Origin: a virus
DNA: 20,782 nucleotides
Reading direction: 5' to 3' (one strand)
Virus record (IMG/VR): IMGVR_UViG_3300032194_000117
Coordinates: 1-20,782 of that record
Shown here: piece after piece, positions 2,685 to 4,584 of the stretch
Numbering within the stretch: the first letter of the stretch is position 1
Layout of the letters: each line of letters opens with the position of its first letter
Program-made: the position numbers and the translations under genes
Notes under the pieces: model-generated
Database searches by the model: none
What the model was told of the DNA's origin: nothing
The model's input: the letters and a program-made list of their open reading frames with translations, nothing else

Positions 2685-3809
2685 TCATGGGCGAATTTTC
2701 ATGTACCAGCCCGTGTCTGGTCCGTCCACGAGCCACCTCGGTAACCAGTTTTTACGGGAGTACGCAACTCCGGCGCCGCCTTTGTGGCTGACATACCCAC
2801 CTGCGACAAGGTTCGCCTCGCCGTAAGGATCATTGTGGATGAAGTGGGTTGGGGTGAAACCGCGTATCACTGTCCAATGGCCGCTGCCGCTTGGGTTATT
2901 GACGGGGCCGCGATGGAGCCAGCCAACAGCAACAGGATGACCGTTTGAGATTTCCTCCACCAACATGTCGGCGGTGCCGTCCATCTCAAACTCGGCCTTC
3001 AGTCCCAGTGAGTGCAGGGCAGCCTTTTGGGCTTGAGGGTTGGTGCTATCCCCAAAGCGGGCGCGGATCTTGTTGTACTCGTAGTCGCCCGAGATCTTGC
3101 CGTAATAGCGGGCCACCATCGCGCAGCTGGAGCTAAAGCACTGGCGGTAACCTTGCGGGCCGTCATCTGCTCCAAGCTGATATTCGTAGGGAACGCGCAG
3201 GATTTTTTCGTGGGGTTTGATCGCTGGTTCAGCTCCAGCGTGCTGGTTCATCAGCTTGATTAGTTTCTCGGCGTAGGCGGGGTCGGTCGCATAGCTCTCT
3301 TTCACTAACCACTTCGCCGCCTCTTCACGGGTGCTGCAGTTATTGCAGCCCTTGTATTTCTTGTAGTCCCTGTACCAGCGATCGACGAGATAGATAACGC
3401 AGGAGGCAAGATCGGGAAAGTCAATAAAGCTGTCAGTAATCGTTATCCATTGGTTGTTGATGAACTCTTGGGTTTTGGTGGCGGTGCCATCGCCCTTGAG
3501 ACCGAAGAAATTATTGCGGCCAGAGACGTGTTTGCCGTAGCCGGATTCCAGTGCCCATTGGGCAGCGACAAGTTCTGGGAATTTTGCGCCAGCAACTCGG
3601 GCGGCTTCGAGTACACCTTCCCAGCTGTTGGGGAAGTTGGTCTGTTTGCCGGCCACGCTCCAAGTCTTGAACCAGCCCTGGTCACGCCCAAGGATGTGGG
3701 GGTTGGCTTTGGTGATGGCCTCTTCCAGCTCATTCACTGCCGCCATTTGATGGGGCAATGCCTTGTAGTAGCGGAAGAGGTCAGCTAGGCGGATCTTGTT
3801 TTGCGCCAT
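2685..3809 (-). CDS. Endolysin: glucosaminidase plus C39-like cysteine peptidase, 374 aa
   Basis: Peptidoglycan-degrading lysin for host lysis or cell-wall passage. Residues about 60-190 form a LytG/FlgJ-type glucosaminidase domain: VLEAARVAG, then QWALESGYGKH with the catalytic Glu88, then NNFFGLKGDG. Residues about 204-374 form a C39-family papain-like domain. YRQCFSSSCAMVARYYG aligns with the CGPASLAMV-type motif and places the catalytic Cys at 224 after Gln223. His310 (GSGHWTVIRGF) and Asp326 (IHNDPYGE) complete the triad. Such a domain could cut peptide cross-links, though its substrate is inferred. There is no signal peptide, so export would need a holin; small membrane proteins are encoded just upstream. 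The start overlaps the previous frame by 29 bases. Confidence 0.93.
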   Translation of the reverse strand: MAQNKIRLADLFRYYKALPHQMAAVNELEEAITKANPHILGRDQGWFKTWSVAGKQTNFPNSWEGVLEAARVAGAKFPELVAAQWALESGYGKHVSGRNNFFGLKGDGTATKTQEFINNQWITITDSFIDFPDLASCVIYLVDRWYRDYKKYKGCNNCSTREEAAKWLVKESYATDPAYAEKLIKLMNQHAGAEPAIKPHEKILRVPYEYQLGADDGPQGYRQCFSSSCAMVARYYGKISGDYEYNKIRARFGDSTNPQAQKAALHSLGLKAEFEMDGTADMLVEEISNGHPVAVGWLHRGPVNNPSGSGHWTVIRGFTPTHFIHNDPYGEANLVAGGYVSHKGGAGVAYSRKNWLPRWLVDGPDTGWYMKIRP

Positions 3810-3999
3810 CAGACCAGGGAGCGTGAATACTGAAACCTCCGTCAGCGTGTTCTCTCACCACAGGTTTGAGTGCTTCGGGCTGTGCTTGGTGCCAGTCCTC
3901 GATGGTGCGATCTAGTCGGGGTTTGAGTGTGGCGTTGAACTTGTAATCGCGTGCCCACTGCCGCATGTGATCGCGCCAGCCTCTATCGCCAAATCGCAC
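3781..3999 (-). CDS. Small protein, 72 aa; may be the -1 frame extension of the preceding membrane protein
   Basis: Function not recognised. The only conventional start is GTG at 3997-3999, without a clear Shine-Dalgarno. The well-formed sequence appears to begin earlier: the frame is open upstream and reads GADVTWLV before RFGDRGWRDHMRQWARDYKF. No ATG, GTG or TTG precedes it in frame. This frame is exactly -1 relative to the 46-aa gene upstream, which ends in the slippery heptamer CCCAAAG, so a frameshift fusion of 126 aa is possible. The product is rich in Trp, Arg and Asp, with a proline-rich acidic tail. It overlaps the lysin start by 29 bases. It could be a lysis accessory protein, but this is only inferred from position. 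Confidence 0.6.
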   Translation of the reverse strand: MRFGDRGWRDHMRQWARDYKFNATLKPRLDRTIEDWHQAQPEALKPVVREHADGGFSIHAPWSDGAKQDPPS

Positions 4000-4019
4000 C
4001 AGCCAAGTGACGTCGGCGC

Positions 4020-4160
4020 CTACTGCTTTGGGAAGGCGGTCTTCAGCAGTTTGAGGGCAAGCTGGACCCAGCTGTTTTCGCGGATGGGGAGCAGGGCGAT
4101 AACTTCGCTGCCACAGGCGACAAGCAAAGCAATGATTGCAAAGGCGGTGGCTTGGTCCAT
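4020..4160 (-). CDS. Small one-helix membrane protein, 46 aa, holin-like candidate
   Basis: A short frame below usual length cut-offs, starting ATG at 4158-4160 and ending TAG at 4020-4022. Residues about 5-25 form one hydrophobic helix (TAFAIIALLVACGSEVIALL). An amphipathic tail, RENSWVQLALKLLKTAFPKQ, follows. This layout (one span, then an S/A-S-E-V-I and E-N-S-x-x-Q-L tail) resembles small membrane proteins near lysins in phages, so it is a holin or antiholin candidate. The gene lies two frames upstream of the lysin. Its last codons, TTC CCA AAG CAG TAG, contain a -1 slippery heptamer that could extend it into the 72-aa frame. It starts 6 bases from a divergent small open frame. Confidence 0.7.
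   Translation of the reverse strand: MDQATAFAIIALLVACGSEVIALLPIRENSWVQLALKLLKTAFPKQ
4026..4032 (-). promoter_or_regulatory. Candidate -1 ribosomal frameshift site CCCAAAG
   Basis: On the minus strand the frame reads C CCA AAG then CAG TAG, so the heptamer fits X XXY YYZ and lies one codon before the stop. After a -1 slip the reading continues GCA GTA GGC into the open 72-aa frame, giving a 126-residue product. Six bases downstream, GCGCC (4015-4019) can pair with GGTGC (3996-4000), with one G-U pair and a 14-base loop, as a weak stimulatory stem. No experimental support is available. Confidence 0.45.
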
Positions 4161-4166
4161 ACGAAA

Positions 4167-4295
4167 ATGGAGTCTTACAAAAGTTTAGCTGTACTAGATA
4201 AGAAGGGCCAGCGTTTAAGTGTTTCTCCGGCTACCTTTCAAATAGCCACTGCTGGGTATGGACCATCAGATCAAAGATGGCGAATACTTAAATAA
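4167..4295 (+). CDS. Possible small leader frame before the HNH gene, 42 aa
   Basis: An ATG at 4167-4169 opens a 42-codon frame ending TAA at 4293-4295, overlapping the HNH start by 38 bases in a different frame. The product (MESYKSLAVLDKKGQRLSVS at its N-terminus) is plausible for a small soluble protein with no membrane span. There is no Shine-Dalgarno and no recognisable family. If real, it could deliver ribosomes to the HNH start, which also lacks a good ribosome-binding site. Equally it may be chance, or the remnant of a longer N-terminal region now out of frame. Confidence 0.3.
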   Translation: MESYKSLAVLDKKGQRLSVSPATFQIATAGYGPSDQRWRILK

Positions 4296-4584
4296 AAAAG
4301 AGGCCAAGTTAAGGTTTAGGCAAGAAATTATTTGGCGGTGGCGTAATCGGTGCGCTTACTGCAACAGTGATTTAGGACGATCAGCCACACTGGACCATGT
4401 ACTAGCTAAGAGCAAGGGCGGGCATACTCATCCCAAGAATTTGATTCCCGCCTGCCTGTCGTGCAATGTCAGAAAGGCAAGCCGTGAGTGGCGGGAGTGG
4501 TTTAGGGAGCAGGACTTCTGGGATCAGCGACTGGAGATTGAGATTGAGGAGTGGATTGATCCAGCTACAGCGGAGGCTGCGTAG
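4258..4584 (+). CDS. HNH endonuclease, 108 aa
   Basis: Metal-dependent DNA endonuclease of the HNH superfamily. Residues 32-35 (CAYC) and 66-69 (CLSC) form a zinc-binding pair of CxxC motifs. Between them lie ATLDHVLAKSKGG (Asp46-His47, the first H of the motif) and HPKNLIPACLSCNVRKA (Asn61, then Asn70). The compact size with no extra domain fits free-standing phage HNH proteins. It is read on the plus strand inside the minus-strand late operon, between the lysin block and the small-gene block, and its end overlaps the convergent 61-aa gene by 20 bases. The frame is closed upstream by a TAG at 4243-4245. A mobile or homing role is likely for such an isolated insertion; a packaging role, common when HNH genes sit beside terminase, is not supported here. 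Confidence 0.9.
   Translation: MDHQIKDGEYLNKKEAKLRFRQEIIWRWRNRCAYCNSDLGRSATLDHVLAKSKGGHTHPKNLIPACLSCNVRKASREWREWFREQDFWDQRLEIEIEEWIDPATAEAA

Follow-up and report, generated by a model that had tools for sequence, protein, structure and literature searches.

On the minus strand of the window (the whole stretch of viral DNA analysed here, 20,782 nucleotides), a small membrane-protein ORF runs into an overlapping open frame, here called the tail, which in turn terminates within the start of an endolysin gene (Table 1). The membrane ORF, read from 4160 to 4020, has the sequence MDQATAFAIIALLVACGSEVIALLPIRENSWVQLALKLLKTAFPKQ, and its 3′ end is TTC CCA AAG CAG TAG. The CCCAAAG in this ending fits X XXY YYZ in the phase of the zero frame, and a ribosome slipping back one base would continue from 4026 with GCA GTA GGC GCC GAC ... 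to a stop at 3783–3781, giving a fusion of 126 amino acids, join(4160..4026, 4026..3781). A first-pass annotation of the sequence had pointed to this arrangement, and our coordinates agree with it for the heptamer (4032–4026, one codon ahead of the stop), for the 81 open residues of the −1 frame (4026 to 3781), and for a GTG, 27 nt into that frame, as its first conventional start; the first 60 nt of the frame contain no ATG. The same annotation likened the site to that of the G/GT-type tail-chaperone genes in the window (C CCA AAA GCC TGA, 20501–20489, minus strand), and the two indeed have identical geometry, the heptamer being followed by one codon and then the stop. Just upstream of the lysis region an HNH-endonuclease-like ORF (4258–4584, plus strand) was recognised by eye on the opposite strand.

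Table 1 Features of the membrane-protein locus in the window.
Feature	Coordinates	Strand	Basis
Zero-frame ORF, 46-aa single-TM holin-like protein, phrog_22542	4020..4160	−	Hydropathy, alignment, conservation
C CCA AAG slippery heptamer, in phase with the TM ORF	4026..4032	−	X XXY YYZ in 217 tail-bearing relatives, five variants
Zero-frame stop TAG, with the heptamer and one sense codon (CAG) upstream	4020..4022	−	Spacing kept in 212/217
−1-frame tail, 81 aa and stop, AVGADVTWLVRFGDRGW...HAPWSDGAKQDPPS	3781..4026	−	pN/pS 0.22, no ATG near the junction
Endolysin, glucosaminidase and C39-like peptidase	2685..3809	−	Overlaps the tail end by 29 nt

In tblastn searches the tail matched two phages, KBS-S-2A and S-CBS1, and the membrane protein matched S-CBS3. 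In all three genomes the membrane ORF ends in A AAA AAG, one codon and a stop; a tail homologue occupies the −1 frame, and the junction lacks an ATG. After four scans of IMG/VR and a single scan of GTDB genomes, the collection comprised 329 loci with 244 distinct junctions. A membrane ORF of the 46-aa type is conserved in nearly all loci retrieved, and the endolysin is the next gene in most of them. The first-pass annotation had named, as evidence that would refute its reading, homologues in which the tail frame has its own ATG and ribosome-binding site and the heptamer is not conserved; the opposite is seen in 217 of the 244 distinct junctions, at which a slippery heptamer precedes a tail in the −1 frame. 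This heptamer is A AAA AAG in 166 cases and C CCA AAG in 46, the rest being G GGA AAG, C CCA AAA and A AAA AAC; of about 220 homologues that bear the tail, 217 have it at nearly the same position. Exactly one sense codon separates it from the stop in 212 of the 217 (AAAAAAG, 165; CCCAAAG, 42; GGGAAAG, 2; CCCAAAA, 2; AAAAAAC, 1); the remaining five comprise four CCCAAAG three codons before the stop and one AAAAAAG directly before it.

The layout recurs in over 200 related viruses whose hosts are cyanobacteria of marine and fresh waters, and is common to S-CBS1, S-CBS3, KBS-S-2A, S-EIVl and T7-like cyanophages. In S-EIVl (L330, KJ410740), which has G GGA AAG in the same layout, the membrane gene is unannotated, and the tail has been given an internal start though it is apparently read in the −1 frame from the heptamer. 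In the T7-like phages WH11-B, 7B11-B and S-B28 the stop comes immediately after A AAA AAG, and the −1 tail has a GSFGEDGWSISLTSPW-like end; their TM gene is situated between tail-fibre-side genes and the small terminase, in the region of T7 holin 17.5, and no endolysin follows the tail. A related membrane protein, encoded immediately ahead of the small terminase, is present in P60 and S-CBP42, where the frameshift is lacking. None of the deposited annotations examined joins both frames: that of KBS-S-2A has no gene for the tail, and those of S-CBS1 and S-CBS3 have tail ORFs with internal starts, by which part of the domain is lost.

The heptamer is far more frequent at these junctions than in the background of the same loci, where X XXY YYZ (Y = A or T) occurs at 0.16% of codon positions in long ORFs and at 1 of 172 gene ends with the same spacing. 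After clustering of the tails at 82% identity into 76 clusters, which are only roughly independent, the probability, given the amino acids, that synonymous codon choice would produce the heptamer in every cluster was about 10^-46 for the 46 A-type clusters and about 10^-27 for the 30 C/G-type clusters. AAAAAAG, CCCAAAG, GGGAAAG, CCCAAAA and AAAAAAC replace one another among relatives with X XXY YYZ always kept, and the preceding codon varies (GCA, GGA, CAA, TCA, ACA, GAA, CCA, CGA) with the required third base retained. Some RNA polymerases slip on A runs, and the runs of six or seven A in most relatives could suggest that the fusion is created by transcriptional rather than ribosomal slippage. 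However, C CCA AAG stands at 46 junctions and G GGA AAG at others, both with just three A and no long run, and slippage of the polymerase would not require that the codon phase of X XXY YYZ be kept; we therefore regard this explanation as exceedingly improbable.

The tail itself is conserved as a protein. Its pN/pS of 0.22 over 502 pairs (by a crude count method) indicates that it is under purifying selection, and its F/W/QP/APW motifs are conserved. An ATG at the junction is absent from all −1 frames of the first set of 129 distinct tails, nearly all of which also lack any ATG, GTG or TTG upstream of the slip, the exceptions being rare far-upstream TTG or GTG codons. The residues upstream of the first GTG in the window are conserved among relatives. 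These residues also bear on the idea that the tail is a separate protein, translated from a non-standard codon by re-initiation or coupling at the stop of the TM gene, for which one could cite the overlap of stop and tail and the presence of CTGA at the junction in many loci and of GTGA in L229. Against such an origin we count the conserved upstream residues; moreover, the codon that the tail frame has at the junction is inconstant (CTG, CTA, GTA and others), the GTA of the window is no initiator, and it is the heptamer, not needed for re-initiation, that forms the constant part. We judge re-initiation to be very unlikely.

The few junctions outside the 217 act as natural controls. Tail-less relatives mostly have no heptamer: those with the endolysin directly after the membrane gene read AAG AAA (L154), CGC AAA (L147–L150), AAG CAG (L156), or CCT, CCC or CCG followed by AAG (L191, L193, L217, L218, L228, L237 and L242). 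Within the FPK subfamily, all 48 relatives with the tail use CCA for the Pro, against 9 of the 17 without it (Fisher p = 5e-6), and the nine that retain CCA are mostly one related group. In S-CBS2, S-CRES1, S-CRES2 and S-CRES3 the tail domain is encoded by an independent gene that immediately follows the membrane gene; this gene has its own start, and its product begins with a different segment that looks amphipathic. A profile comparison of these separate proteins, aligned with podovirus tails, connected them to the tail family (93%, E = 3.5e-7). Synonymous choice and natural losses thus agree that the site is kept beyond coding needs. Given the conservation of the heptamer, the selection on the tail and the joint loss of tail and heptamer, the membrane gene almost certainly contains a conserved programmed −1 ribosomal frameshift. 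Sequencing error, assembly artefact or a decaying pseudogene might be invoked on account of 454-type errors at homopolymers and an in-frame fusion through an indel in L066, but this explanation is refuted by conservation, with hundreds of contigs and cultured phages, non-homopolymer sites and purifying selection all against it, and we assign it practically no probability.

Three loci may be evolutionary intermediates. In L229 the heptamer is gone and a GTG overlaps the stop, in L235 CCCAAAG is retained and the tail has apparently decayed, and L066 has its in-frame fusion, unless this is an assembly error.

The first-pass annotation also described a weak stem downstream of the site, which did not hold up: the RNA downstream in the window shows no extra structure relative to shuffled sequence (z = 0.31). 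Across the 76 clusters, the RNA right after the site has a mean z of −1.2, with 26% of clusters below −2, and upstream values are −0.5 to 0.2. This mean suggests that stimulatory stem-loops may exist only in some lineages, where they may promote the slip; in the window this is not demonstrable. In dnaX a Shine-Dalgarno stimulator is spaced about 10 nt from the slip site. We looked for a similar element upstream of the slip and rejected it, as there was no peak about 10 nt upstream.

The short form has one TM segment at about residues 6–24, with an amphipathic basic helix after it; in the window the best 19-aa hydropathy is 2.46, starting from residue 6. An S-E motif is invariant and an N-S motif nearly so. 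In the alignment, K/R residues follow the TM segment and no positive charge precedes it. From this distribution the positive-inside rule places the C terminus of the short form, and with it the tail of the long form, in the cytoplasm, a topology that is predicted from sequence. In an AlphaFold2 model of the tail (mean pLDDT 79), a helix of 33 residues and two short strands lie ahead of APW. Searches of Pfam, PDB and BFVD returned no match for the family or fold of the tail, and only weak hits were obtained to phrog_3316, a family with no assigned function. The PHROG of the membrane protein, phrog_22542, likewise carries none. With one TM helix, a charged hydrophilic C terminus and a gene beside the endolysin, the short form has traits like those of class III holins; its 46 aa fall below the quoted holin size range of 49–210 aa (PMC12843271).

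A TM segment followed by an 80-aa, partly helical domain, encoded beside the endolysin in phages of a Gram-negative host, could alternatively make the long form an inner-membrane spanin rather than a regulator of a holin. The charge pattern around the TM segment speaks against this, in that it predicts the tail to be inside the cell, as does the lipobox-like LVAC of the window, which is unconserved (AAAS in most relatives). We consider an inner-membrane spanin unlikely. A lipoprotein or u-spanin derived from LVAC was rejected as well: in most relatives Ala or some other residue stands in place of the Cys at residue 16 of the window protein, and since the lipobox cysteine is not conserved the protein is not an o- or u-spanin.

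The best reading of these comparisons is that the locus is a lysis gene from which two products are made. Most ribosomes would translate the 46-aa membrane protein and halt at TAG, and a fraction would shift by one base into the −1 frame at C CCA AAG (in most relatives, at A AAA AAG) to yield the 126-aa form, which would consist of the shared TM part and the conserved 81-aa tail. The short form would be a small class III-like holin, and the long form would co-assemble with it and either modulate its triggering in the manner of an antiholin or tie it to the lysis machinery; the frameshift rate would fix the ratio of short to long form. We think it probable, with some reserve, that the short form has holin activity. 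The antiholin-like role of the long form is put forward tentatively, and with equal caution we suggest that a wide range of cyanophages could time lysis through the frameshift-fixed ratio of a holin to its C-extended, antiholin-like partner.

A different emphasis is suggested by the tail stop, which in many loci lies 4–32 nt past the endolysin start, and by the tail-less loci L147 and L154, in which the TM stop directly overlaps the endolysin ATG. The frameshift could be real and yet serve mainly to ferry ribosomes to the endolysin start by translational coupling, with the tail protein secondary. This is rather unlikely as the main function, because the tail is conserved as a protein and is a separate gene elsewhere, and no endolysin follows it in the T7-like cyanophages. 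Since many loci have the tail stop a short distance beyond the endolysin start, coupling of endolysin translation is a possible additional role of a frameshift that would yield two lysis proteins.

Conserved frameshifts of tailed phages are well known in tail-chaperone and capsid genes (PMC10885494, PMC7881722). Lambda-type G/GT resembles the present case in that ribosomes shift by −1 on X XXY YYZ shortly ahead of the stop of the first ORF and give a minor, C-extended product, but G/GT is a virion-assembly gene whereas the gene described here is a small membrane gene beside the endolysin, and there is no apparent homology between them. T7 gp10A/10B capsid and dnaX tau/gamma, the latter with the slip site A AAA AAG, similarly use a slippery site to make two proteins with a common N terminus; here, unlike in those systems, the common part is one TM segment only, to which the shift would append a new soluble domain. 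In lambda, S105 and S107 are two membrane proteins from one gene with opposed roles as holin and antiholin. They are alike in this to the pair proposed here, but they arise from two start codons and differ at the N terminus, whereas the difference here is at the C terminus and is made by a predicted frameshift. The T7 gp17.5 holin and class III holins share with the short form the small size, the single TM segment, the basic C terminus and the position in the lysis cassette, and in T7-like cyanophages the membrane protein is encoded close to, or immediately ahead of, the small terminase; the likeness to gp17.5 rests on size, TM segment, charge and position, no holin family being matched by sequence.

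Frameshifting itself is thus well known. The open-access papers searched contained no report of a frameshift of this kind in a phage holin or lysis gene, nor of a conserved one in a gene at the holin position, which is weak evidence because most subscription papers lie outside that set, and the papers on KBS2A and S-LBS1 mention no frameshift. We know of no opposed pair made from one gene via a frameshift in any phage lysis cassette. If the interpretation is correct, hundreds of viruses contain a protein domain that has gone unannotated, and siphoviruses and podoviruses of a globally important host share a conserved −1 frameshift in a membrane gene of the lysis cassette. It would also correct the annotation of KBS-S-2A, S-EIVl, S-CBS1 and S-CBS3 and offer a simple, testable model for the tuning of cyanophage lysis, a little-understood process.

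Two further resemblances were noted. Free-standing cyanomyovirus proteins (L339, L341–L343 and L346), mostly T4-GC 410, have a C-terminal GVFGDEGWSI that resembles GSFGEDGWSI of the podovirus tail. We considered the T4-GC 410 proteins as possible in-frame fusions and rejected the idea, there being no evident TM homology and a probability of 1.5% in the profile comparison, which does not support kinship of the cyanomyovirus proteins to the siphovirus tail. In the Microviridae genome MH572431 (L334), an unannotated homologue of the small membrane protein, MEIIMANPELFLAAALAISEIIALTPLKSNSIFQLLFNILKRKEGS, is encoded at about 1489–1629, between the scaffolding and replication genes of this single-stranded DNA microvirus, and is a candidate lysis gene in an unrelated class of virus.
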